Source of the DNA: Paludisphaera borealis
GTDB lineage: Bacteria > Planctomycetota > Planctomycetia > Isosphaerales > Isosphaeraceae
Direction of reading: 5' to 3'
DNA: 64,000 nucleotides
Assembly: GCF_001956985.1 (NCBI RefSeq)
Contig: NZ_CP019082.1
Location: 1,612,001-1,676,000, forward strand
Under the pieces are notes generated by a model. It was not told the DNA's origin. It searched no databases and saw nothing but the letters and a program-made list of their open reading frames with translations. Positions 6,402 through 24,739 of this stretch are shown here, piece after piece. The translations under genes and the position numbers were made by a program. Numbering within the stretch: position 1 is the first letter of the stretch; each line of letters starts with the position of its first letter.

Positions 6402-7616
6402 ATGAAGGACGCCTTGACGCCAGCGATCGAGCCGGCCGTGACCGATGCGCCCCAGGGCTTCGACGACCTCGAAGCGATTCTCGACGCCGAAGGACCCGCC
6501 CCGGCCCTCGATCGCCTGATCGAGCGTTTGGACGCGTCGCGCGACTACCGGCTCTTGCTTGACGCCCTCTTGCTCAAGGCCCGGCACGAGCTGGGACTGC
6601 CGTTGATCCAGGTCGGCAAGTACGCCGAGCTGCCTGAGGAGCAAAGAACGCGATTCGAAGACCGTTACGTCGAGGCGCTCCGCCGCGTCGGCTCGCGGTT
6701 CCTCGACGTCGACGACATCCCCACCGCCTGGGCCTATTTTCGGGCCATCGGCGAGACCGCGCCGGTCGCCGCCGCGCTCGAGACGTCGCAGGCTCCGAAA
6801 GACCCCGAGAAGCTCGGGCCGATAATCGAGGTCGCCTTCCACCAGGGGGCCAACCCGAGGCGTGGTTTCGAGCTAATCCTCGAGCATTACGGCGCCTGCT
6901 CGGCGATCACGTCGCTCGAACAGCTTGGACCGATCGATCCCGCGATTCGGTCCGCGTGCATCGAACGGCTGATCCGCCACATCCACGCCCAGCTCGCGGC
7001 CAACATCCGGGCCGACGTCGTCCAGCGCGGGCAGCCGAAATCGCCCGAGGGCGCTCCGATCGCGCAGCTCATCGCGGGGCGGGACTGGCTGTTCTCGGAC
7101 GAGTCGTACCACATCGACATCTCGCACCTGACCTCGACGGTCCGGTCGTCGCTTCAGGTCACCGACCCCGAGGCGCTCGACCTGGCGATCGACCTCGCCG
7201 AGTACGGCCGGCGGCTGTCGCCCAGGCTTCAGTACGACGGGGCGCCTCCATTCGAGCGGACCTTCGAGGATCATTACGTCTTCCTCCGCGCGGTCCGCGG
7301 GCACGACGTCGACGCCGCGATCGCTCACTTCCAGGCGAAGCTCCCCGCGCCGGAGGCCGGCGCCGAGGACCTGGAGTCCACCATGCCCGCCCAGGTTCTG
7401 GTCAACCTGCTGGTCCGGCTCGACCGCCTCGACGAGGCGATCGATGTCGCCGCGGCTCACCTCGCGAACGTGCCCGACTCGCTGCTCGCCTGCCCACCGC
7501 TCGCCGAGCTTTGCCAGCGCTCGGGGCGGCTTGATCGACTGGCGTCGGCAGCCCGCACCATGAACCACCCGGTCCATTTCCTGGCCGCGATGATCCAGGC
7601 CCGGAACAAGCCGTAA
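6402..7616 (+). CDS. Conserved-looking cytoplasmic protein of unknown function
   Basis: 404 residues, rich in Ala, Leu, Glu and Arg and predicted helical throughout, with no signal peptide or membrane segment. Motif-like stretches include LLLDALLLKARHELGLPL near residue 50 and HYGACSAITSLEQL near 165. The tail (residues 330-400) has spaced helix pairs resembling degenerate TPR repeats. GGAG sits 11 bases before the ATG. It follows the LOG-family gene by 26 bases and is probably co-transcribed. No named domain was recognised; a TPR-like solenoid is only a guess. Confidence 0.75.
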   Translation: MKDALTPAIEPAVTDAPQGFDDLEAILDAEGPAPALDRLIERLDASRDYRLLLDALLLKARHELGLPLIQVGKYAELPEEQRTRFEDRYVEALRRVGSRFLDVDDIPTAWAYFRAIGETAPVAAALETSQAPKDPEKLGPIIEVAFHQGANPRRGFELILEHYGACSAITSLEQLGPIDPAIRSACIERLIRHIHAQLAANIRADVVQRGQPKSPEGAPIAQLIAGRDWLFSDESYHIDISHLTSTVRSSLQVTDPEALDLAIDLAEYGRRLSPRLQYDGAPPFERTFEDHYVFLRAVRGHDVDAAIAHFQAKLPAPEAGAEDLESTMPAQVLVNLLVRLDRLDEAIDVAAAHLANVPDSLLACPPLAELCQRSGRLDRLASAARTMNHPVHFLAAMIQARNKP

Positions 7617-7841
7617 GATCGCACCTGAGTTTCGGATTTCCACGGATTCGAGACTTGATCGGAGGCCGTCCGTCGTCCTCTAATTGTAGGGTCGAATTGC
7701 GGCGTCGAAACCCGCTCTCGATCTTCCGGCTAGTACATAAACTCGACCAGAGTGCGAGGCCGTCGCCCATCGACGTCTCGCGCGATGATCGGTCAAGAAG
7801 ACGCCCGACGCTCCTGGCCTTGATTGACGAGGTTTCCCTTG

Positions 7842-8456
7842 ATGAAACGTCTTCTGGGAGCGATCGTGACGTTGCTCTTGCTCGCCACGTCGACGTTCGG
7901 ACTGGATGATCCGCCGAAGCCCGTCAGCCTCTTCGACGGCAAGACGCTTGAAGGCTGGGTCGCTGAGCACGCCGACGGATTCGGCGTTCACGACTCGGTC
8001 CTCGCCGTCAATGGAGGCGCGGGGTGGTTGCGGTCGGCCAAGTCGTACAAGAATTTCGAGCTCGACGCCGAATTCCGGATCGTCAAGGCGGGGACCGAGG
8101 GAAGCCTGCTGTTCCGAACCAGTCTCGAAACCGCGCCGACGGATCCGTTTGGACCCGTCAAGGGGTATCAGCTCCAGCTCATGGACGGCGACGGCGGCTT
8201 CATGCTCTTCGGCCACGGGACCAACCCGCCTCGGTTCGAGCGCAAGACCGATGCGCTCAAGGCGGCGGCGAAGGAACTCGGGACCTGGCGAAAGCTCAAG
8301 ATCAAGGTCGTCGGCGCGCACCTGGAGGCTCGGCTCGACGACGTCCTGATCACGACGTCCGACGCGATCGAGCAGAACCCCGGTCATCTCGGTCTGATCG
8401 GTAAGACCGGTCAGCTCGAATGGCGGAACATGACGATCCTCGTCCATCCCGATTGA
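7842..8456 (+). CDS. Secreted DUF1080 (3-keto-disaccharide hydrolase-like) protein
   Basis: 204 residues. A signal peptide (MKRLLGAIVTLLLLATSTFG) is followed by the DUF1080 opening VSLFDGKTLEGW, and the jelly-roll continues through SYKNFELDAEFRI, GSLLFRT and GYQLQLMDGDGG to the terminal LEWRNMTILV strand. The family is a concanavalin-like fold common in planctomycetes; some members hydrolyse 3-keto-glycosides outside the cell. The ATG at 7842 is chosen because it begins the signal peptide; an upstream TTG at 7824 is less likely. It faces the minus-strand gene at 8461, leaving only 4 bases between them. Confidence 0.85.
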   Translation: MKRLLGAIVTLLLLATSTFGLDDPPKPVSLFDGKTLEGWVAEHADGFGVHDSVLAVNGGAGWLRSAKSYKNFELDAEFRIVKAGTEGSLLFRTSLETAPTDPFGPVKGYQLQLMDGDGGFMLFGHGTNPPRFERKTDALKAAAKELGTWRKLKIKVVGAHLEARLDDVLITTSDAIEQNPGHLGLIGKTGQLEWRNMTILVHPD

Positions 8457-8460
8457 ACGA

Positions 8461-8676
8461 TCAGGCGAAGCCTTCCTCCTCGATCAGGCAGAGGCCGGCG
8501 TCCGCCAACTCGGCGGCGGTGTGCTCCTCGAAGCGGCTGAGCAACAGGTCTCGGCCCCAGTCTTCGTTCTCGACGGCTTCGAGCGGCGGTAGTCGATCCT
8601 CGCCGAAGTGATTGACGAGGATCACATAAGCCTCGGCGACGCCAAGCTCGACGACCGGCTTCAGCTTCATCTTCAT
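8461..8676 (-). CDS. Small acidic protein coupled to the site-2 protease gene
   Basis: 71 residues from the ATG at 8676. That start codon overlaps the TGA of the upstream M50 protease gene (ATGA at 8676-8673), a normal sign of translational coupling. An in-frame ATG lies two codons further upstream. The sequence is acidic with alternating short helices (VAEAYVILVNHFGEDRL, LLLSRFEEHTAAELADAG) and no signal or membrane segment. I do not recognise a family. The context suggests a partner or regulator of the protease, but that is inference only. Confidence 0.6.
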   Translation of the reverse strand: MKMKLKPVVELGVAEAYVILVNHFGEDRLPPLEAVENEDWGRDLLLSRFEEHTAAELADAGLCLIEEEGFA

Positions 8677-9452
8677 CCCCATCGGCGGTTCGCCCAGTCG
8701 GCGACAGTGACCGGTGCCAGCCGCCACACGCCCTGGCCGCTCTCAATCCAGCGGTAGCCGGGAGGGGCTTTCCAGAGGTCTTCTTCGTTGGGCGTCGGAC
8801 TGCGCCGGCGACGCTCATCAGCGAGCACGCCGGCTTCCTCGACCCCCGCCGCGTAGTAGATGAACCCGGCCAGGGCGACCTGGATCAGGTTGAAGGTCAA
8901 CAGGCTGTAGATTCCGAAGCCCAACGCGAGCGCCCGTCCGACGCTCGCCGCGAACGACGTCGCCCGGCCCCGCCCGATCCAGCCGCTGAGAACGGCCCGC
9001 AGCACCCGCCCGCCGTCCATCGGAAACGCCGGGATCAGGTTGAAGCCGCCCAGGACCAGGTTCATCGCCATCAGTTGCAGCAGGAAAAAGCTCGCGTAGT
9101 CGCCCAGAATGGCGGAGCCCCCCAGCCCGAGCACTGCGCACAGACCCGCCGCGATGGCGAAATTCACCGCCGGCCCGGCCAGGGCGATGAGCAACTCGGC
9201 CCCAGGGGCGCGCGGCATGCGCATCAGCCGGGCCACGCCGCCGATTGGATAGAGCGTGATATTCACCGTGCCGATGCCGAACCGGCGCGCCGTCAACGCG
9301 TGCCCGAATTCATGCAAGAGCACGCAGCCGAACAGGGCGATCACCAGCGGCAGGTTCGCAACCGCGCCCGGCGCGAACAGGATCAAGAGAAAGGTCGGGT
9401 GCAGGAAAACATCGATCCCCGCAGCCCGACCTAGCTTCCAAGACATTCGCAT
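8673..9452 (-). CDS. Site-2 protease family (M50) intramembrane metalloprotease
   Basis: 259 residues. The zinc motif HEFGH lies at about residues 47-51 within a hydrophobic helix, and the second active-site motif NLIPAFPMDGGRVLRA, which holds the third metal ligand Asp, lies near 140-155. Several further membrane helices are visible, and the C-terminal 50 residues are polar. Family members cleave membrane-embedded substrates, often anti-sigma factors or regulators. The length fits the compact SpoIVFB-like class without CBS domains. It is coupled to the 71-residue gene by a 4-base overlap. The substrate is unknown. Confidence 0.9.
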   Translation of the reverse strand: MRMSWKLGRAAGIDVFLHPTFLLILFAPGAVANLPLVIALFGCVLLHEFGHALTARRFGIGTVNITLYPIGGVARLMRMPRAPGAELLIALAGPAVNFAIAAGLCAVLGLGGSAILGDYASFFLLQLMAMNLVLGGFNLIPAFPMDGGRVLRAVLSGWIGRGRATSFAASVGRALALGFGIYSLLTFNLIQVALAGFIYYAAGVEEAGVLADERRRRSPTPNEEDLWKAPPGYRWIESGQGVWRLAPVTVADWANRRWG

Positions 9453-9554
9453 CGACGAACCACGTCCCTTTCTGGAGGGAGATCAACCCGTCTCCTCGAC
9501 TCCACTACCTAATTCGACGACGAGTCGATGAAAGTTCGCCGGAATCGGTCTCGA

Positions 9555-11348
9555 TCAGCCGTACAACGGACCGAAGTTGGCGCAGGCGCGGTAGTCGGCG
9601 GCCTGCGGCTCCAGCGCTCCGAAGAGGCTCCAGGTGCTGGGGCGGAAGACCTTCTCGGCGGGCACGTTGTGCATGGCCACGGGGATTCTCAGGATCGAGG
9701 CCAAGGCGATGAGGTCGGCGCCGATGTGGCCGTAGCTGATCGCCCCGTGATTAGCGCTCCAGTTGGCCATCACGCTGTACACGTCGGTGAACGGCCCCTC
9801 GCCGGTCACGTTGGGGACGAACCACGTCGTCGGCCAGGTGGGATTCGTCCGTTCGTTGAGAATCTTGTGGACGTCGGCCGGAACGTCGACCGAAAAACCC
9901 TCGGCGATCTGGAGTACGGGTCCAAGCCCCTTCACCAGGCTGAGCCGGCTCATCGTCATCGGCATCCCTCCCCGTGAGAGGTAGCACGACGAGTAGCCGC
10001 CTCCTCGGAAATACTCGGAGATCGCCGCGGGCCAGGTGGTCGCGTCGAGGCAGCGTTCGGCCTCGGCCTCGCTGATCTCCCAGAACGGCTTCATCGCCGG
10101 CATGCCGTCGCGCGACTGCTCGCCCGTGCCATCCAGCGTGGCGGCGCCCGAATTGATCAGGTGGATGATCCCCCCCGCCGCGAGCCCGGACAGAGTATGC
10201 CCCGTCACCCGCTTGACGGCGTCCGGGCTCCAGTACGTCCGCACGTCGGCGAAGATCTGGGCCGTATTCGTCAGCAGATAGCCGAGCAGCATCCCGACGC
10301 CGTTGAGGCAGTCGTTCTCGGTGGCGACCATGTACGGCATCCGGACGCCGTTCCAGTCGAACGACGAGGTCAGGATCGCCTCGGAAAAGTCGCCGTTGGG
10401 CGAATGGTCGGTCCACGCTCGCTGACCCTGGAACCCCCCGGCGATCGCGTTGTGGCCGAGGGCTTCTTCGCCGTAACCTAGTGCGTCGAGCCGGGGGTTG
10501 CCGATCATCAGGTCGCGGAGGATCAGCGTCATCTTGACGACCGTGCGCCAATCCTCGGCCTTCACCTCGGCGGTCTTCCGGGCGGCCGGCGGATTGTAGT
10601 CCTTGCCTTCCTTGCAGTTCACATGAACCCAGAGCAGGGCTCGCTCGAATTCGTCGGGGTCGTAGATCTCCTCATTAATACGGCGCGTCAACTCGCTCAT
10701 GTCGACGCACTCGACCCGCATGCCGAGGTAGTGCTCGAAGAACGGCTGATCGACGATCGAGCCCGAGATGCCCATCGACACGCCGCCGACCGACAGGTAC
10801 GACTTGCCTCTGAGCGTGGCCGCCGCCAGCCCGGCGCGGACGAACCGCAGCAGCTTCTCCTGGACGTCGTCGGGGATGTTCGTATCGCCCGAATCTTGGA
10901 CGTCGCGGCCGTAGATGCCGAACGCCGGCAGGCCTTTCTGGTTATGGGCGGCGAGCACCGCCGCCAGGTAGACCGCGCCCGGACGCTCGGTGCTGTTGAA
11001 CCCCCAGACGGCCTTGGGCATCAGCGGGTCCATGTCCATCGTCTCGCTGCCGTAACACCAGCAGGGCGTGACCGTCAGGGAGACCCCCACGCCCTCGCGG
11101 GCGAACTTGTCGGCGCACGCGGCGGCCTCGGCCACCCCGCCGATGCAGGTGTCGGCGAGCACGCACTGCACCGGCTCGCCGGTCGGGTGCCGGAGGTTGG
11201 CGGTGAGAAACTCGGCGGCGTTCCGAGCCATGGCCGTGACCTGGTCTTCCAGCGACTCCCGAACCCCGCGCCGGCGGCCGTCGATCACGGGACGAATTCC
11301 GATTTTCGGCAACCGACCGATCCAGGGGCTCTTGACGTTCGAACTCAT
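9555..11348 (-). CDS. fucI: L-fucose isomerase
   Basis: 597 residues, the normal length. It interconverts L-fucose and L-fuculose using Mn2+. Similarity to the E. coli enzyme, compared from memory, runs the whole length: [20 protein letters not shown] at the start, [35 protein letters not shown], and the metal-ligand regions [13 protein letters not shown] (Glu), [12 protein letters not shown] (Asp) and [14 protein letters not shown] (His). It ends [13 protein letters not shown] as expected. AAAGGAA lies 9 bases before the ATG. It is downstream of the M24-like gene on the same strand. No fuculokinase or aldolase gene is nearby. Confidence 0.97.
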
Positions 11349-13985: not shown

Positions 13986-14480
13986 ATGCCGGACGAGATG
14001 CCGAAAATCCCCCTGCTTCAGCAGCGTGAGATCGAGGCTGGGATCGTCGGCCCGCTGGTCCGGGCCTTCGCCCATGAGGTCGGCCAGGAGCGGGCGCTGA
14101 TGGTGCTTCGCGAGGTCATCACCGATCTCGCCCGGCGGAGCGGCCGGAATCTCGCCGTCTCGCTCGGCGAGGACTCGTTGGAGGCGTTCGCCGGGGCGCT
14201 CGACCGGTGGCGGGAAAACGACGCGCTGGAGATCGAGATGCTCGAACAGTCGCCCGATCGCCTGTCCTTCAACGTCGTCCGCTGCCGTTACGCCGAGATG
14301 TACCGCGCCCTGGGGCTCGGAGACCTGGGGGCGAGCCTTTCCTGTCAGCGTGATTTCGCCCTCGTCGAAGGCTTTAATCCGGCTATCGATCTGGAGCGCA
14401 CCCAGACGCTGATGCAGGGGGCGCCTTATTGCAATTTCCGGTTCCGACGAGCCGCCGGGCCGGAAGCGGACCCGAGTTAG
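13986..14480 (+). CDS. L-2-amino-thiazoline-4-carboxylic acid hydrolase-family protein
   Basis: 164 residues, soluble. The C-terminal half fits the ATC-hydrolase family (PF14196): CRYAEMYRALGLGDLGASLS, a conserved Cys in SCQRDFALVEGFNP, and the ending TLMQGAPYCNFRFRR. The founding enzyme opens the thiazoline ring on the way to L-cysteine, but most relatives are uncharacterised. The N-terminal region is helical. It is a single gene whose last four bases overlap the stop of the convergent gene at 14477. Confidence 0.75.
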   Translation: MPDEMPKIPLLQQREIEAGIVGPLVRAFAHEVGQERALMVLREVITDLARRSGRNLAVSLGEDSLEAFAGALDRWRENDALEIEMLEQSPDRLSFNVVRCRYAEMYRALGLGDLGASLSCQRDFALVEGFNPAIDLERTQTLMQGAPYCNFRFRRAAGPEADPS

Positions 14481-15154
14481 CGTGGCGCGTCGTGGCTTGC
14501 TTGCTTGGCGGCCGGGTCGACGACGGGTTCGGGGGGCGGGCTCGTTACGAACTGACAGCGGTCGCCGAGCACCCCGTTCCAGGCTTGGAGTTGCGGGTTT
14601 GACAGGATGGCGAGCGACTTGCGACGGATCGCCGTCTCTTCGGCCGGGTTGAAGCCGTTCTTGATGAACCGGGCGTTGCGGTCGGCGATCAGGTGTGTGA
14701 GTTCGCGGACCTGGCTCGTGCTGAGCTTCAAGATCTCGGCGACGGCGGGGCGGCTGACCAGGGCCGACGAGCCTTCCCACTGGAGGTCGATCTGGCTGAG
14801 CCGGCTGAACTGCTGCTCCGACAGGTTCGCTGTCAGCCACTGACTCTGCGCGTCGTCGATCGCCTGACGCTCGGCGATGACCGTGCCGCCGGTCTTGCCG
14901 CGCAGGGCCTGCGCCCGCTGCGAAAGATCGTCGATCGTCTTGTGCAGCGAGGCGATCTGGGCGGCTTCGAGCTTGACGTCGGATTGAACGTCGGGGCGAG
15001 TCAGCAGCAGCAAGGGCGCTGTGCGAATCCCCATTCGGCCGTCAGGCAACGACCAGTCTCCCCCGTCGCTTCGACCCGAGAAGACGGCGAGAATCAGGCT
15101 CAATCCGAGACCGAAGACTCGCACGGCCTTGGCGAAAAACAGTCCTCGACGCAT
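14477..15154 (-). CDS. Secreted Spy/LTXXQ-like helical protein
   Basis: 225 residues. A long signal sequence (FAKAVRVFGLGLSLILAVFS) is followed by helical, Gln-rich periplasmic sequence. The pattern DVKLEAAQIASLHKTIDDLS followed by LSEQQFSRLSQIDLQWEG resembles the repeated L-T/S-x-x-Q units of Spy/CpxP-like periplasmic chaperones, as does KLSTSQVRELTHL. The ending is Pro-rich and polar. A similar, larger protein is encoded immediately upstream (15308-16810), so the two may be a pair. The family assignment is tentative. Confidence 0.65.
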   Translation of the reverse strand: MRRGLFFAKAVRVFGLGLSLILAVFSGRSDGGDWSLPDGRMGIRTAPLLLLTRPDVQSDVKLEAAQIASLHKTIDDLSQRAQALRGKTGGTVIAERQAIDDAQSQWLTANLSEQQFSRLSQIDLQWEGSSALVSRPAVAEILKLSTSQVRELTHLIADRNARFIKNGFNPAEETAIRRKSLAILSNPQLQAWNGVLGDRCQFVTSPPPEPVVDPAAKQASHDAPR

Positions 15155-15307: not shown

Positions 15308-16810
15308 TCAGCGGGAACCGCGGGCACGCGTCGATTTGACGGCCGCACTCGACTTGGGGGTCGCGCTCTTGGTGGCCGCGCTATTGCTAGTCGAGTCCTT
15401 CGAGCCGTCCGCCGCGACGTCGGCCTTTGCCGTTGCACTGCCGTTGGCGGTCGCGTTGTTGGCATTCGCATTGTTGGCAGTCGCGTTGTTGCCGTTCCCC
15501 GGGCCGCCTGGGCCACCCGGCGCGCCTGGGCCACCCGGGCCGCCTGGGCCACCTCGCATGAAGCCCTGGCGAACCAGATTCACGTCGAAGGGCTTGCCGA
15601 GCATCTTCTTGAAGGTGGTGACCTGGCGACGATCGAGAGCCTTATAGACCATCGTGTAAGACCGCTCGGTCAACGCTTCTTCCTGCTTCCTAACCTCGTC
15701 CATCTTGGCTTTGACGTCCGGCTGCTCCATCAACTTGCGCATGGCTTCCGGATCGAAGTTGCGGCGATTACCGCCTTGACCGCCGGGGCCGCCGTTGCCA
15801 GCTTGAGCGCCAGCGCCGTTGGTTCCCCGAGCACCCTGACGGCCTCGTCCCGTGTTGGCGTTGGCGTTCGCCGGAGGAGTGTTCTGGCCGTTGGCGTTCG
15901 CCGGAGGAGTGTTCTGGCCGTTGGCGTTGGCTTGCCCTTGCTGGCCGTCGCGGAGCGATCGGAAGACGTCGCGGGTCTGCGACATGATCTCGCGGCGCTG
16001 CTCGTTGGCGGCGCCCTGAATCTCGCGGATTTCCTCGGCCTGTTCGTCTCGGATTTCGAGGCGTTCGGCCACGTCGGGCTTGAGGACCGCGAACGGACCT
16101 TCGACTTGAAGTTGAATCTCGTAGAGGCGGCGGATCTGGGCCTTGTCGAGGATCTTGGCGAGACTCTGCTCCGATCCCGCCTGAAGCTCTTCCATTCCCT
16201 GCCGCATCATCTCCCGGCTCTCACGCTGCACTTCGTTCTGTTGCTGCCGGAATTCCTGCTGCACGGCGTTGGGATCGACGCCGCCTTGCTGGCCGCCGTA
16301 GGGGTTGGCGCCGAAGCCTTGGCCGGCACCTTGGAGACCCGACACCAGAGCCTGGTTGCGCGGGTCGAGAGTCTGGGGGCCTTGCTGGAGATTATTCGCC
16401 GCATCCTGTTGTGCGGCCTGAAGCTGGGCTCGCGCGGCGTCACCTTGCTGGCGCATGTTCTGGAAGAACTCGCGCCGCTTCGAATCGAGGTCTGACGAAA
16501 GCTTGCTGATCTTGATTTTCTGGCTGTCGGTAATCTTCACTTCTTTCTGAACCGGGTCGATGCCGGCCAGCGAGATGATCGATCCCCCAGGGCCACCGAA
16601 GCCTCCAAAGCCACCGGGGCCTCCGAAGCCGCCGGGCCCGCCAGGTCCTCTCTGGCCGCCTTGGCCGCCCTGCCCGCCTTGACCACCCTGGCCGCCGGCT
16701 CGGTTGCCCCGTCCGCCTCCGCCTTGCTGTTGCGCAAAACTGGTCACGGAGGCCGCGGCCACGGCGGCGGCCAGACCTCCAGCGATTACGGATAAGCGAA
16801 TACGCGACAT
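15308..16810 (-). CDS. Secreted Gly/Gln/Asn-rich low-complexity protein with helical core
   Basis: About 500 residues. A signal peptide (IAGGLAAAVAAASVTSFAQQ) is followed by a collagen-like Gly-rich stretch of GGQ and GGP triplets to about residue 70. A helical Gln-rich core contains ITDSQKIKISKLSSDLDSK and ILDKAQIRRLYEIQLQVEG. Next comes an Asn/Pro tandem repeat, a second Gly-Pro stretch and an Ala/Asn/Ser/Lys-rich basic tail. The start at 16810 is preferred over 16816 because GAGGAG then has 7-base spacing. The core resembles Spy-like metal-sensing or chaperone proteins of planctomycetes. It probably acts in the periplasm or cell surface; its role is unknown. Confidence 0.75.
   Translation of the reverse strand: MSRIRLSVIAGGLAAAVAAASVTSFAQQQGGGGRGNRAGGQGGQGGQGGQGGQRGPGGPGGFGGPGGFGGFGGPGGSIISLAGIDPVQKEVKITDSQKIKISKLSSDLDSKRREFFQNMRQQGDAARAQLQAAQQDAANNLQQGPQTLDPRNQALVSGLQGAGQGFGANPYGGQQGGVDPNAVQQEFRQQQNEVQRESREMMRQGMEELQAGSEQSLAKILDKAQIRRLYEIQLQVEGPFAVLKPDVAERLEIRDEQAEEIREIQGAANEQRREIMSQTRDVFRSLRDGQQGQANANGQNTPPANANGQNTPPANANANTGRGRQGARGTNGAGAQAGNGGPGGQGGNRRNFDPEAMRKLMEQPDVKAKMDEVRKQEEALTERSYTMVYKALDRRQVTTFKKMLGKPFDVNLVRQGFMRGGPGGPGGPGAPGGPGGPGNGNNATANNANANNATANGSATAKADVAADGSKDSTSNSAATKSATPKSSAAVKSTRARGSR
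15861..15920 (-). repeat. 30-bp perfect tandem repeat, two copies, in a coding region
   Basis: Bases 15861-15890 and 15891-15920 are identical, and a third copy begins with 8 matching bases. On the minus strand the unit encodes a ten-residue segment with GQNTPPANAN periodicity in the low-complexity linker of the Gly-rich secreted protein. Because the unit is a multiple of three, copy-number change would preserve the frame. Confidence 0.95.
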
Positions 16811-17028
16811 GCCCATGCTCCTCGAATACACGGATTCCGCCATCAGTGGCCGTAGCCCAACGGTCGTCAATGGCCGGGGCCGACGTCTTCACTCATCTTA
16901 GCGGCTTTCGAGGGGAGGGTGGCCGGGATTCTCGGTCAAGCTTTTAAGAATAATCCGTTCCGGTCGGATGCCGTTCGTAGTGAGTCTTGGCGCTTGCCCC
17001 TATTCGAGATGCGGCTCGCGTATTGCGA

Positions 17029-17802
17029 TCAGTGCGGCCGCGAAGTCCAGAGCCAGGCGGCCAGCGCGAAGGTCGCCGACATCGTGCTCAACCGGACGAG
17101 CAGTCGGTAGACCGCGAACCGTCGTGGGGCGAGCGACAGTGAGCCTTCGCCCCCCTCGATCGCGACACCGCCGGCCTCGGCCTGCCGCTCGAAGTTCGCC
17201 AGGGTCGACATGCCGACCAGATGGACGAGCCAGACGATCAGGAAGCCGACTCCCTGATCGAGCCAGGCTCGCCAGGGGACGGGGGGAATGCCGGGCTTCC
17301 ACCAGGCCGGGGTGGTCAACGGCGCATCGCTCTGGTAGACGACGAGCCGGAGCGAACCGGCGTCGATCTTCTCGCCATCGCTCACCCGGACGGCCAGGTC
17401 GACGGGCTGGGGCGTTCCCTTCGAGGGGGTGCCTTTGACCAGTCCCGAGTCGGGATCGAAGCTCAAACCCTCGGGAAGCGCGCCGTCGAGCGACCAGTGG
17501 AGCGGCCCCTGGCCGCCGTCGGCCGCCAGGGCTACCGTGTACGGCCGGCCGGCGATCGCCTCGGGAAGGCTCTCGGGCGTGAGGATCTTCAACGGCCGAC
17601 GCGCGACCTCGGCCGGCCCACCGTCCTGGGGGCGCGCCGCGGAGTCGATCGCCTTGGGGAGCAGGGCCATGATGACCATCGTGAGCAGCAGGATGAACAG
17701 CAGCGCCCCGGTGAGCTTGGTCACGACGACGGCGACGAACGAATCCTCGCCCGATCCGCCGAATTCCAAGCCCGATCCGCCGCCTCGCCGATTCCGTCGC
17801 AT
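17029..17802 (-). CDS. Membrane protein with putative Ig (He_PIG) domain, partner of the MotA/ExbB-like protein
   Basis: 257 residues. A Gly/Arg-rich cytoplasmic start with GEDSF leads into a first membrane helix (LTGALLFILLLTMVIMALL, about residues 30-48). A periplasmic Ig-like domain follows (about 70-165) with the classic putative-Ig pattern LPEAIAGRPYTVALAADGG, LPEGLSFDPDSGLVKGTP. Two more membrane helices follow (VGFLIVWLVHLVGM and TFALAAWLW near the end). The gene lies 81 bases downstream of the channel-like gene on the same strand. An ExbD/MotB-like role for the first helix is an inference from position; no OmpA domain is present. Confidence 0.7.
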   Translation of the reverse strand: MRRNRRGGGSGLEFGGSGEDSFVAVVVTKLTGALLFILLLTMVIMALLPKAIDSAARPQDGGPAEVARRPLKILTPESLPEAIAGRPYTVALAADGGQGPLHWSLDGALPEGLSFDPDSGLVKGTPSKGTPQPVDLAVRVSDGEKIDAGSLRLVVYQSDAPLTTPAWWKPGIPPVPWRAWLDQGVGFLIVWLVHLVGMSTLANFERQAEAGGVAIEGGEGSLSLAPRRFAVYRLLVRLSTMSATFALAAWLWTSRPH

Positions 17803-17883
17803 GGCTTGCCTCTTTATGGAGACCCCGGGCGCGTCCCGATCGCGCTCCTTGAACCCTCAAACGGACGACCGCCGCCTGCCGCG

Positions 17884-19266
17884 TCAGGCCGCCCGGACCG
17901 AGTCGGACCGCGAGCCGCCGTTGCCGCCGCCGCCATTGCCGCCGCTGCCTCCTCGGTCGTCGAACATCCGTTTCACGATATTCTTGTACAGGGAGTTCCC
18001 CTGCTCGATGCTGACGTTGATCATCTCAAGGGCGTCCTTGAGGCTGTTCATCGTCTTGGCGAGCTGCTCCTGGGTCGACCGGCTCGACTTCTCGTAGGCC
18101 GACGCCCACGAGCCGGCGAGGCTCTCGATAGCCGTGGTGGTGCGATCGAGTCCGCGCTTGATCTCCTGGAGCTGCGGATCGGGGGCGTCCGACCGAGCCA
18201 GGGCGTCCTCGATTCGGGAGAGCGAGGCGGCGGACCTTCTCGTCGATTCGCTCAGGTTCCCAAGCGCCTCGAACTCGCCGCCGATCCGGCCGATGGTCTC
18301 GGCGCCTTGCTGGAACGCCGAGAGTGAAGCCGGCATCAGCTCGACCGACGCCGCGAGCCGGCGGATCGGGTCGCTCAGGCTCTGGCTGATCTTCTCCGCT
18401 TCGACTTGAAGCGAGCGGGCGGCCGGCTCGAGGATGGTCGCCAGCTCGGTCCGCAGCCGTTCCAGATGCGGGCCGATCAGCTCGTCGAGCCGCTCGGTCA
18501 TCGGATCGCGGCTGCCGGCGCCGGGCAGGACGTGCTCGACGACCCACCGATCGACCCGCGCCAGGTGCTGCTCGACCAGCCGGAAGATCATGGTTTGAAC
18601 CAGCATCAGCGCGGCGCTCAGGAACAAGGCGAGCAGGGTGCTGTCGAACGCGATCTGAAGGGCTGAGGTCACGCCGGTCAGGTTGCTCAAGAAGGCGTCG
18701 AGGTCCTTGACCATCGGCAAGACCTTGCTGATGTTCATGAGCGCTTTCGAAATGCCTTCGACCGTGCCGATGAATCCGATCACCGGCAGGAGGTAGAGGA
18801 TGTAGCGCGTAAGAGTGAACCGGCCGGCCATGTGCTCCTGGTCAAGGCCCGACGCCTCGCGGTTGACTTCCATCAACTGGCTGGCCGAGGGGCCGCTGAT
18901 CTCACGGGCGTAGCCCACGAGCTGCCGCACGCGGACGGTCAGGATGCGGCCGTCGCGGGTGATCGCTTCGGCGACCGGCGCTGGCTCGCGTGAGCCGACC
19001 CGGCTGAGCGTCTGGCCGATGAACTGGAGCAGTCTGGGCGCGTCTTCAAAGGCTCGCTCGTTGCGCCAGAGCCGGAGAAGCTCGTTGCCGAGGGTCAACA
19101 CCGCCCAGAAGTAGATGGCCGTCCCGACGTACTGCTCCCAACCACGCTCGAACATGAGCGTCGGGTTGAAAACCATGAGGCCGATCGGGAACAAGAGCGC
19201 CAGCACGAGCATCGCCGACGCGGTGAGATAGCCCAGCCGTGGGGAACCTGAAGCGCCAGTCGCCAT
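17884..19266 (-). CDS. MotA/TolQ/ExbB-family proton channel-like protein with long coiled-coil tail
   Basis: 460 residues. Two N-terminal membrane helices (about 11-34 and 46-62) are followed by a cytoplasmic loop, then the paired channel helices. The first channel helix has YLLPVIGFIGTVEGISKAL, the P-x-x-G-x-x-GTV signature, and the second has TSALQIAFDSTLLALFLSA with the conserved pore Thr. From about residue 235 to 430 the protein is a long amphipathic coiled coil, ending in a Gly/Asn-rich tail (GGSGGNGGGGNGG). Typical ExbB proteins are half this length. A cytoplasmic tail on such a stator is known from ZorA of Zorya systems. Ion conduction is inferred from family. Confidence 0.8.
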   Translation of the reverse strand: MATGASGSPRLGYLTASAMLVLALLFPIGLMVFNPTLMFERGWEQYVGTAIYFWAVLTLGNELLRLWRNERAFEDAPRLLQFIGQTLSRVGSREPAPVAEAITRDGRILTVRVRQLVGYAREISGPSASQLMEVNREASGLDQEHMAGRFTLTRYILYLLPVIGFIGTVEGISKALMNISKVLPMVKDLDAFLSNLTGVTSALQIAFDSTLLALFLSAALMLVQTMIFRLVEQHLARVDRWVVEHVLPGAGSRDPMTERLDELIGPHLERLRTELATILEPAARSLQVEAEKISQSLSDPIRRLAASVELMPASLSAFQQGAETIGRIGGEFEALGNLSESTRRSAASLSRIEDALARSDAPDPQLQEIKRGLDRTTTAIESLAGSWASAYEKSSRSTQEQLAKTMNSLKDALEMINVSIEQGNSLYKNIVKRMFDDRGGSGGNGGGGNGGSRSDSVRAA

Positions 19267-22345: not shown

Positions 22346-24739
22346 TCACTTCGCGGCAGTCGCCTTGTTCGAGTTCGACTCGGGCTTTTTCTCGGTCGAT
22401 CCGGCGTCCTGGCGGAGGATGACGACGCGGTCGTGGAGGATGGCGACGAGGTCGGTGCGGCCGTCACCGTCGACGTCGCCGAGGGCCATGTCGCGGGGCT
22501 CGATCATGTCGCCGCCGCCCCGGAACGACTTGCGCTCGAAGAGTTTGAAGGTTGTGGCGTGCAGGAGTTCTTCGTCGCCAACGTAGCTGGCGATGTCGAG
22601 CGACTGTTCGGCCACGTCGGTGAAGACGACGTCGGGGACGCCGTCGCCGTTGAGATCGCCGGTGATCAAGTCGGCCAGGCGGGCCTCGTTGCGCTTGGGT
22701 TCATAGCTGGCGATCTCCTTGAGGCGCTGGCCTTTGTCGCCGGTCTGGAGCACGGCGAACCGATCGCTGCCGGCGATCAAGAGGTCGTCGCGGCCGTCGC
22801 CGTCGAAGTCGGCGACGTGCAGGCCCTCGAAGTTGATCGAGCCCACCGAGAGGGTTCCGGTCTGCCGGTAGACGCCGTCCTTGGGAGTGAGGAACAGCAG
22901 CGACTTCGAGGTGCGGTCGAGCAGGACGACGTCGGCGCTCCCTTCGCCGGTGACGTCGAGCGCCGCGGCGCCCTGGATCTGGACGGCGGCGCGGCCGGCG
23001 TTGTACTGGTCCTTGATCTCCCACTGGCCCTTGGCGTCGAGCACGATGTGCCGCGCGAAGGTGTTCTGGGCCACGATCAGGGCGGGCCCCTTGAGGTTCA
23101 TCACGCTCAGGCCGGAGGGCGTGGCGCCGCCGAGCGGGCCGAGGCTGCCGCCGAACGGGGCTAGGGAATGATCCTTGGGCTGGCCGAGGAGCAGGACCGG
23201 CGAGCCGAACGCGCTGAAGATGATGATGTCGGTCTCGCCGTCGTTGTTGACGTCGAAGGCGCGGATGGCCGTCGGGGCGCCCGAGAGGCCCGTCAAGGGG
23301 ACGGACTCGTTGGGGCCGAACTTCCGTTCGGCGAACTCGCCCGAGTCGCCGCGGCGGATCGCCCGCAGCTCGAAGCTGTCGGCGCCCGGCTTGGTGCGCG
23401 CGGCGTAGACGATGGCGGGGGTGGACGCCTTGTCGAACTGGGCCAGGCCCATCGCGATGGGTTCGCCCTTGATCGGCAACGGCGTGGGGAAGCCGAGGCG
23501 GCCGTTCTCGAACTGGCTGCGGCCGATCTGCTTTTCTTGCTCGGAGAGGACGTACGCCTCGTCGCTTCCGTTCTTGTCGAGGTCGGCGAGGACCACGGCC
23601 TTGCCGCCGAGCAGGCCGGGGAACGACTGGCCGGTGTTCAGCCCCGACTTGCCGCTCTGGCGGTAGACCCAGACCTGGGCGTTGGCGGGGTCGGTGACGA
23701 GCACGTCCTTCTTCTTATCGCCGTCGAGGTCGCCCACGGCCAGGGCCCGGCCGCGGTCGCTCCCTTTCGGAAGTCCGAAGAAAATCAGCCGTCCCCACTT
23801 GTTGGCGTCGTCGGTCGACGACTCATCGAGCGTGTAGACCTTGCCCCGGCCGGACGTGTTCTCGATGGTGAGCACCTCGACGCCCGGCATGCCGTCGATC
23901 TGGCCGTACGTGATCGCCCGGGGGCTCTCGACCGCGAACCGCTGTTCGGGCCCCAGCTTCTTATCCTTGGTGGCGAACCGGACGTGGATCGGGTGGTCGG
24001 TGCCGCTGTCGAGGATCAGCAGGTCGGAGGCTCCGTCGCCGTTGAGGTCGTGGATCTTGACCATCCGGGGGTTGCTCGCGGTGTGCGGGACCCGCTCGGG
24101 CTCGGTCAAGACGCCGGGGGCCGTCTGATAAATCAGGATCAACTCGTTCTCGGCGATCAGCGCGACGTCGTCGCGGCCGTCCTGGTCGAGGTCGCCGACG
24201 GCCAGTGAGTTCGACCCTTCGACCGCCTCGCCGCTGTGGATCCGCTTCGGATTGCCGAACTTGCCCGGCCCTTGGTTGAACAGGATTTCGACCTCGGCGG
24301 GGGTGCCGTAGTACACCAGGTCGGGTTTGCCGTCGCCGTTGAAGTCGCCGACGTCCAGGCTGACGATCTCCTTGTTGACCGAGATGCTGGCCAGCCGCAT
24401 CCGCTTGTCCGACTCAAGGTCGTTGGCTTCCTTGCGGAACGGCCGCGCGTCGGCCTCGCCGGCCGGCAGCTTGGTCGAGAGCAAGAGGTCGATCCGCGAC
24501 CGGGCGTTGTTGCCCACGATCACGTCGCCGATCTTGTCGCCGTCCAGGTCCCGGACCACCAGGTTGCCGATCCGCCGCTCCAGCTTGTAAAGCTCCAGAG
24601 GCTGAAACCCGAAATAGTCGGCGAGCTTCGACTTCGCGGCGGGCTCTTGCGCCTCGACCGGGGTGGGGCGTCCGACGATCACGAGTCCCAGGAATAAAGG
24701 GATCAGGACGACCGGGCGAATCTGCGGGAGCATGGTCAT
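22346..24739 (-). CDS. Secreted FG-GAP/VCBS repeat protein
   Basis: 797 residues. A signal peptide (LIPLFLGLVIVGRPTPVEA) leads a protein made almost wholly of beta-propeller FG-GAP/VCBS repeats. I count about ten calcium-binding D-x-D-G-D-x-x-x-D-(V/L) motifs, such as VRDLDGDKIGDVIVG, VGDFNGDGKPDLVYY, VGDLDQDGRDDVALI, IHDLNGDGASDLLIL and LGDVDGDGRTDLVAI. It is presumably exported and structural or ligand-binding; no catalytic domain is seen. The C-terminal 15 residues are polar and Lys/Asn-rich. It runs in the same direction as the DUF6714 gene but 70 bases separate them. Confidence 0.88.
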   Translation of the reverse strand: MTMLPQIRPVVLIPLFLGLVIVGRPTPVEAQEPAAKSKLADYFGFQPLELYKLERRIGNLVVRDLDGDKIGDVIVGNNARSRIDLLLSTKLPAGEADARPFRKEANDLESDKRMRLASISVNKEIVSLDVGDFNGDGKPDLVYYGTPAEVEILFNQGPGKFGNPKRIHSGEAVEGSNSLAVGDLDQDGRDDVALIAENELILIYQTAPGVLTEPERVPHTASNPRMVKIHDLNGDGASDLLILDSGTDHPIHVRFATKDKKLGPEQRFAVESPRAITYGQIDGMPGVEVLTIENTSGRGKVYTLDESSTDDANKWGRLIFFGLPKGSDRGRALAVGDLDGDKKKDVLVTDPANAQVWVYRQSGKSGLNTGQSFPGLLGGKAVVLADLDKNGSDEAYVLSEQEKQIGRSQFENGRLGFPTPLPIKGEPIAMGLAQFDKASTPAIVYAARTKPGADSFELRAIRRGDSGEFAERKFGPNESVPLTGLSGAPTAIRAFDVNNDGETDIIIFSAFGSPVLLLGQPKDHSLAPFGGSLGPLGGATPSGLSVMNLKGPALIVAQNTFARHIVLDAKGQWEIKDQYNAGRAAVQIQGAAALDVTGEGSADVVLLDRTSKSLLFLTPKDGVYRQTGTLSVGSINFEGLHVADFDGDGRDDLLIAGSDRFAVLQTGDKGQRLKEIASYEPKRNEARLADLITGDLNGDGVPDVVFTDVAEQSLDIASYVGDEELLHATTFKLFERKSFRGGGDMIEPRDMALGDVDGDGRTDLVAILHDRVVILRQDAGSTEKKPESNSNKATAAK

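Follow-up and report, generated by a model that had tools for sequence, protein, structure and literature searches.

The axle proteins MotB, TolR and AglQ/AglS carry the conserved acidic residue of their motors themselves (excerpts of PMC9389320); in GldLM, the known exception, the acid is located on the ring (excerpts of PMC8986121). In that system E49 of GldL, in the ring, is an essential protonatable residue; GldL has two transmembrane helices, and GldM a periplasmic arm of four domains (excerpts of PMC8986121). In Zorya, ZorB combines a critical aspartate (D24/D21) with a peptidoglycan-binding domain (excerpts of PMC11890865). From the PVC group, TolQ-like rings with TPH-vWA partners and paired heterologous tolR genes have already been described (excerpts of PMC12204202), and MotAB and generic ion transporters are covered by the available part of PMC12505986. 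TolQ, motility and gliding are absent from the main text of a genome comparison of the Isosphaeraceae (PMC5352709), and no publication on the gene pair described below was found in the literature searched.

The window (the whole stretch of 64,000 nucleotides of Paludisphaera borealis that was analysed) contains a pair of open reading frames, A and B, both on the minus strand, with A upstream of B and 81 nt between them (Table 1). The two proteins probably form a ring-and-axle membrane complex related to the bacterial ion-driven motors.

Table 1. Coordinates in the window of genes A to D and of the parts of A and B discussed in the text.
Feature	Position	Strand	Description
A	17884..19266	minus	460-aa ring subunit of the MotA/TolQ/ExbB fold with long helical cytoplasmic tail
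A TM3, residues 150-180	18727..18819	minus	contains LPVIGFIGTVEGIS; invariant Thr168 and Glu170 (codon 18757-18759)
A TM4, residues 196-222	18601..18681	minus	contains ALQIAFDSTLLALFLS; invariant Asp208
A cytoplasmic tail, conserved tip, residues 391-435	17962..18096	minus	74.5% identity; predicted helix 364-439
B	17029..17802	minus	257 aa; helix 1, Ig domain, helix 2, helix 3
B helix 1, proposed axle helix, residues 19-48	17659..17748	minus	Lys29 at 17716-17718; no Asp/Glu beyond Asp20
B Ig-like domain (He_PIG, cadherin/dystroglycan-like), residues 70-155	17338..17595	minus	Pfam, model and structure matches
B helices 2 and 3, about residues 185-205 and 229-252	17047..17250	minus	predicted membrane re-anchor
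C	15308..16870	minus	secreted-looking LTXXQ/Spy-like protein
D	14477..15154	minus	225 aa, signal-peptide-like N-terminus; matched by the same iterated profile as C

A sequence-only reading of this locus had assigned the product of A to the MotA/TolQ/ExbB channel family, and its identity as a channel ring subunit of that fold is supported. The protein matched the Pfam family MotA_ExbB (PF01618) with 28.2 bits, over the cut-off of 22.9, and with 31.4 bits in a genome search. Its AlphaFold2 model (mean pLDDT 68.9) places helices at residues 10-33, 42-87, 128-187 and 189-251, followed by the long helical tail. With this model, Foldseek ranked ExbB first at an E-value of 2.5e-3, with no match under 0.001, and TolQ/ExbB chains headed the VIA-align list with Z-scores of about 11.5-13.2 over residues 32-273; as a Z near 13 can reflect an arrangement common among long helices, and the model is of moderate confidence, the assignment of the fold rests on the Pfam match and on the agreement between Foldseek and VIA-align. 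When solved structures were searched with the sequence of A, the tail gave matches of coiled-coil type and no channel was returned. The long tail that had been read from the sequence is likewise predicted to be helical (residues 255-358 and 364-439), at low confidence (pLDDT about 46-75). Mean pairwise identity in the tail is 41.1% before the conserved tip, compared with 74.5% within it, and tail and tip probably contact a cytoplasmic partner or set the orientation of the ring.

For B, the same reading had described an Ig domain with two more helices after the first, and this architecture was borne out. He_PIG (PF05345, E-value 2e-8) is the only family to pass its Pfam cut-off, and no ExbD or OmpA-like periplasmic domain was detected. 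The AlphaFold2 model (pLDDT 81.0) contains a helix at residues 19-54, a domain of strands at about 70-155, and helices at 185-212 and 225-254, the last two of which are predicted to lie in the membrane given their hydrophobic sequence. The matches listed for this model are Ig-type domains, with a putative galactosidase, SraP, dystroglycan and cadherin among the best, and a sequence search of solved structures with B likewise gave mainly Ig-type domains. Elsewhere in the same genome, an open frame of 2946 aa (G000:C1:6726618-6731660, in part within L065) encodes many Ig repeats that resemble the Ig domain of B.

Conservation of the two proteins was followed as mean pairwise identity (22 rows for A, 24 for B) and by counting residues in 37 (A) and 35 (B) of the 43 genomes of the family Isosphaeraceae that have the genes; the fragments L023 and L030 were omitted from some alignments of A. 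Helix 1 of B is 97.6% identical among 24 genomes, TM3 of A 93.4% among 22 rows and TM4 92.8%, followed by TM2 (70.4%), TM1 (54.8%) and the cytoplasmic part of A (48.1%), and by helix 2 (55.7%), the Ig domain (51.8%) and helix 3 (45.0%) of B. This joint maximum of constraint in TM3, TM4 and helix 1 suggests that helix 1 lies in the pore of A, and favors the earlier placement of that helix in the position of the ExbD/MotB axle. Where residues of helix 1 agree, the codon is shared in 55.6% of cases, compared with 46.8% expected from codon usage; the synonymous codons have thus largely diverged, and it is the protein that stays constant. In a control set of seven ordinary ExbBD loci, all of one type and mostly from the genus of the window, identity was 96.6% in the ExbB helix and 87.0% in the ExbD helix. 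The conservation of helix 1 of B therefore equals or exceeds that of a genuine axle helix.

The residues at these positions set the pair apart. Glu170, two residues past the channel-motif residue Thr168, and Asp208 occur in 37/37 family genomes examined, and A thereby has carboxylates inside membrane helices of the ring, as is the case in GldLM. Among 40 sampled loci of relatives outside the family, glutamate was never found at the position of Glu170, which is residue x of the GTVxG motif and is occupied there by Ile (22), Leu (7), Met (6), Arg (2), Val (2) or Gln (1); the position of Asp208 holds Asp in 35 of these loci and Glu in one, the pattern being unmatched in four. In B, Lys29 is the sole charged residue inside helix 1 and is present in 35/35 family genomes examined; this count kept rows bearing VTK, a filter that lost no genome, and Lys29 was seen in unfiltered alignments also. 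The acidic residues that had been noted ahead of the helix are indeed conserved, Asp20 being invariant in all aligned rows and Glu19 replaced in a single row, by Ala (sets of 23 and 35). However, the protonatable carboxylate expected within an axle helix is missing: no Asp or Glu occurs in the 27 residues after DSF in any of the 35 genomes. The earlier suggestion of an ion-driven motor is not supported by these results. By comparison, helices of ExbD type from the family, found in 19 of 20 regions with a search pattern that did not require Asp, have it in 19 of 19 cases.

A and B are core genes of one family, the Isosphaeraceae, in which orthologues are 44-79% identical. When 40 relatives were searched, 25 of them from the same family, a strong match to A and a full-length match to B were obtained together in 24 of the 25; in the remaining genome (G019), no A was found and the search with B gave Ig-domain matches only. 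With a profile of B, full-length matches came from 43/45 family genomes; in two of these, G129 and G164, the match contains a stop codon. Not one of the 352 other genomes of the class gave such a match, the matches there spanning the Ig part only; across 392 genomes of the phylum, only two matches were found at an E-value of 1e-15, both from family members. In these class and phylum searches at most six candidates per genome were scored, and the absences apply to that search. The profile of A also matched in 43/45 family genomes, G019 and G133 being the two without a match, and found weaker relatives in 124 of 153 other genomes at E-values up to 1e-10. Genomes of the family with A have one gene of this kind, except for a partial second copy in G005. 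A pattern scan of named genomes located 33 loci with A, including Paludisphaera, Aquisphaera, Singulisphaera and Tautonia records; five of these (L188, L198, L200, L201 and L205) were without B in the stretch examined. Three (L198, L200 and L201) are records of metagenome-assembled genomes titled Candidatus Kuenenia that contain an A of the Isosphaeraceae type, which suggests misnaming or contamination.

The neighborhood was compared in 21 regions, comprising the window and 20 of the 23 other genomes with B (G003, G011 and G023 were omitted). Conservation of the two genes as neighbors had been set as a check on the earlier reading, and it mostly holds: in 17/21 regions A is the gene immediately before B on the same strand, and in the other four it is 2.9 kb away or on the opposite strand. 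At the named locus of Singulisphaera acidiphila (L186), A and B share a strand and are separated by about 2.2 kb (gap at about 7275-9571). A gene for an FG-GAP repeat protein at 22346-24739 of the window has close homologues near A and B in 4/20 regions. Also in the window, a gene on the plus strand at 13986-14480 encodes a protein of 164 aa, which presumably resembles an ATC-hydrolase-type protein; its end meets the end of D, and homologues occur near A and B in 7/20 regions.

Downstream of B lie the genes for two further proteins, C and D, which are named by position as the profile cannot distinguish one from the other. Translation of C probably begins at an ATG near 16816, which precedes a stretch resembling a signal peptide. 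C matched PF07813 with 26.9 bits as a protein, above the cut-off of 24.3, and with 22.3 bits in a genome scan, under it; D passed no Pfam cut-off. A match to the profile of C was found downstream of B on the same strand in 18/21 regions, including all four in which A is not beside B, and none was found after B in the other three. The linkage of B with C is thus about as tight as that of A with B. A second match on the same strand, corresponding to D, occurs within 2.2 kb after B in 9/21 regions. Among the named loci, 23 of the 28 with B have a C-type gene after it, these 28 overlapping in part with the genomes of the regions.

Outside the family, genes related to A commonly stand with two further genes, B1 and B2. 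Among a chosen spread of 40 loci from the A-profile matches listed, a protein of B2 type was detected in 35, in each case with an aspartate where the helix begins, and one of B1 type likewise in 35; the B2 count used a profile built from rows with Asp but not demanding it, and for these counts one row of the B2 list (L173) was reassigned to B1 and two rows of the B1 list (L149 and L162) to B2. At one locus (L137), both partner genes encode the axle aspartate motif (SFLDILACTVGAL), its B1 row included, and at three (L140, L165 and L173) the contig ends soon after A. This motor-like A-B1-B2 module (loci L134-L173) is common in Planctomycetia, and Pfam gave no match over its cut-offs for the two B1 and two B2 proteins from outside the family that were tried. 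Its A is homologous to that of the Isosphaeraceae, and the two have in common the long tail and the AFD[ST]T motif of TM4. The module differs from the Isosphaeraceae pair in having no B but two B proteins with a coiled coil and a further C-terminal part, in the axle aspartate of B2, and in a GTVxG residue that is never Glu. In a tree of 57 rows rooted on three ExbB sequences, the 14 rows of A from the family group together in one starred clade, which arises on a long stem (1.26) from within the other 40; its closest neighbor, L162, also has a long branch and is placed with little certainty.

Genes B1 and B2 persist in the Isosphaeraceae, in 44/45 and 43/45 genomes, respectively (41 of the latter at E-values below 1e-47), and no A-like open reading frame lies near them in 20/20 regions. 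They are present also in G019 and G133, two fragmented assemblies in which neither A nor full-length B was found. The genome of the window has its own B1/B2-like genes at about 8013-11827 of L231 (G000:C1:5148000-5166000), again with no A-like frame nearby, and a glutamate lies where the membrane helix of that B1 begins. At one column of family B1, glutamate occurs in 20/20 regions, aligned with Ser of the SLFPF motif of relatives. In family B2, no Asp is present at the aligned place, nor any conserved acid in the helix, among 20 regions. The helix of B1 is 35.1% conserved and that of B2 20.7% (18/20 regions). The B2 profile matches the genome of the window from position 54 only, compared with positions 1-4 in 17 other rows with E-values below 1e-30; in three family genomes (G160, G015 and G014) the match starts at 4-18, and hence the helix of B2 has decayed unevenly within the family. 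Profile comparison gave a weak match between helix 1 of B and that of B2 (probability 50%), with 5% for full-length B against B2 and 2% for helix 1 of B against B1. The picture is one of a single rewiring on the stem of the family, in which A acquired a different partner, the axle acid was lost, the ring acid and the axle lysine were gained, and the old partners were left elsewhere. Since these changes all fall on one stem, they amount to a single co-occurrence, and provide neither independent covariation nor independent evidence for one another.

The reading preferred here, to which a probability of about 0.5 is given, is that A and B form a stator-like complex, with a pentamer of A around an axle of two B helices, that was rewired from the A-B1-B2 module in an ancestor of the Isosphaeraceae, and in which any charge transfer would involve the ring carboxylates and Lys29. 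The pentamer most likely encloses the two helices as in a ring-and-axle motor, and the older planctomycete assembly from which it would have arisen is envisaged as one ring with two different axles. Position 24 of B (or 25, depending on a gap of one residue) would take the place of the lost aspartate, with Lys29 1 to 1.5 turns farther up the helix, and contact between Lys29 and Glu170 is plausible. Charge transfer, if any, would then rely on the ring carboxylates (Glu170, perhaps Asp208) acting on Lys29 of B, in the manner of GldLM, with no axle aspartate; ion coupling may run through these carboxylates or may have been lost. The Ig domain would sit in the periplasm just above the ring, held to the membrane at both ends, and this anchoring suggests that any motion of helix 1 would be passed to a partner near the membrane, probably the secreted Spy-like C and D, rather than to peptidoglycan; it also argues for a short stroke close to the membrane. 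The fuller account, that the ion-binding carboxylate has moved from axle to ring, with Glu170 facing Lys29, and that an axle tied back through the Ig domain and two helices rocks or orbits, rather than spinning freely, to act on a secreted Spy-like partner, is possible but decidedly tentative. If true, it would represent a second, independent route to the charge layout of GldLM, taken from an aspartate-based planctomycete motor on the stem of one family. The Asp-bearing relatives and the Asp-less clade together offer a natural comparison by which the role of axle charge becomes directly testable.

Among the considerations that count against the preferred model are that the double anchoring of B would hinder free rotation and that B1, with its new glutamate, could be an axle partner of A. 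Others are the weak profile match to B2, the B2 helix that is not degenerate in every family genome, the single stem on which the changes fall, the three regions with no C-type gene found after B, and the two fragmented genomes that have B1 and B2 but gave neither A nor full-length B. One alternative is an assembly that is derived from a stator but is an ion motor no longer: a fixed or gated scaffold, with helix 1 of B plugging the ring and the Ig domain binding a ligand of the envelope. The lack of a carboxylate from helix 1 in every genome examined (35/35) and the predicted membrane ties on both sides of the Ig domain, which disfavor continuous rotation, are in its favor. However, a scaffold need not retain Thr168 and two invariant carboxylates in the pore helices of A, which are the most conserved part of that protein, and GldLM demonstrates that a motor can work with its acid on the ring; the scaffold is judged unlikely. 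Another alternative is a mixed axle, in which A would drive both B, through Lys29, and B1, encoded at a distant locus and supplying the new glutamate, with B2 reduced to a plain membrane anchor. This would account for a glutamate found in 20/20 regions where outside relatives have Ser, and for a B2 helix that is weakly conserved and without a conserved acid; the older module, moreover, has two different B proteins, and there is but one A of this kind per family genome with A, the partial copy in G005 aside. Yet the B1 helix is only 35.1% conserved, as against 97.6% for helix 1 of B, and the genes for B1 and B2, which lie apart from A and B, are still present in the two genomes where A and full-length B were not found; a mixed axle is considered improbable.

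The sequence-only reading had also likened the tail of A to ZorA while noting that no Zorya effector gene was adjacent. The latter observation stands, as none of ten neighboring proteins matched any PADLOC model at an E-value of 0.001 (no ZorC, ZorD or ZorE), and the former holds at the level of the superfamily only. Membership in Zorya was rejected: A scored 9.7 bits against the NCBIfam model of ZorA, for which the cut-offs are 190 and 100, its best PADLOC match reached 16.4 bits, and B matched no Zorya model in PADLOC or NCBIfam. That the pair might nevertheless be an unusual anti-phage system of Zorya type, as its long cytoplasmic tail and the weak PADLOC matches to ZorA could be taken to indicate, is very improbable given these scores, the absent axle aspartate, the neighbors without a defense match, and a presence in 43/45 genomes of one family that is unlike the sporadic occurrence of a defense island.

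Compared with the described systems, the preferred stator-like complex shares with TolQR/ExbBD the fold of the membrane part of A and the GTVxG motif, and it differs from them in that B has neither an ExbD domain nor an axle aspartate, that A has a long tail, and that B has an Ig domain and two extra helices. ZorAB, like A, has a ring subunit with a long cytoplasmic tail, but the family-level models fail, ZorB has an Asp where helix 1 of B has none, and no effector was found near A and B. The closest known charge layout is that of GldLM, by analogy of a protonatable residue on the ring subunit. GldM has an arginine near the ring acid. No mention of this arginine was found in the excerpts of PMC9389320 and PMC8986121. 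No sequence relation between the two systems was found, no GldL or GldM family being listed for A or B in Pfam and NCBIfam, and only the tail region giving a match to GldL (E-value 0.13); B, moreover, has a single Ig domain and two more helices, and in GldM a Glu31 close to the helix is also conserved, although dispensable. With the motors described from the PVC group (excerpts of PMC12204202), the locus has in common a partner helix, not of ExbD type, that is predicted to lie in a TolQ-like ring; paired B genes, too, have been described from that group. Those partner helices keep the proton-binding Asp and are joined to a vWA domain, whereas B has no such Asp, and an Ig domain instead of the vWA domain.
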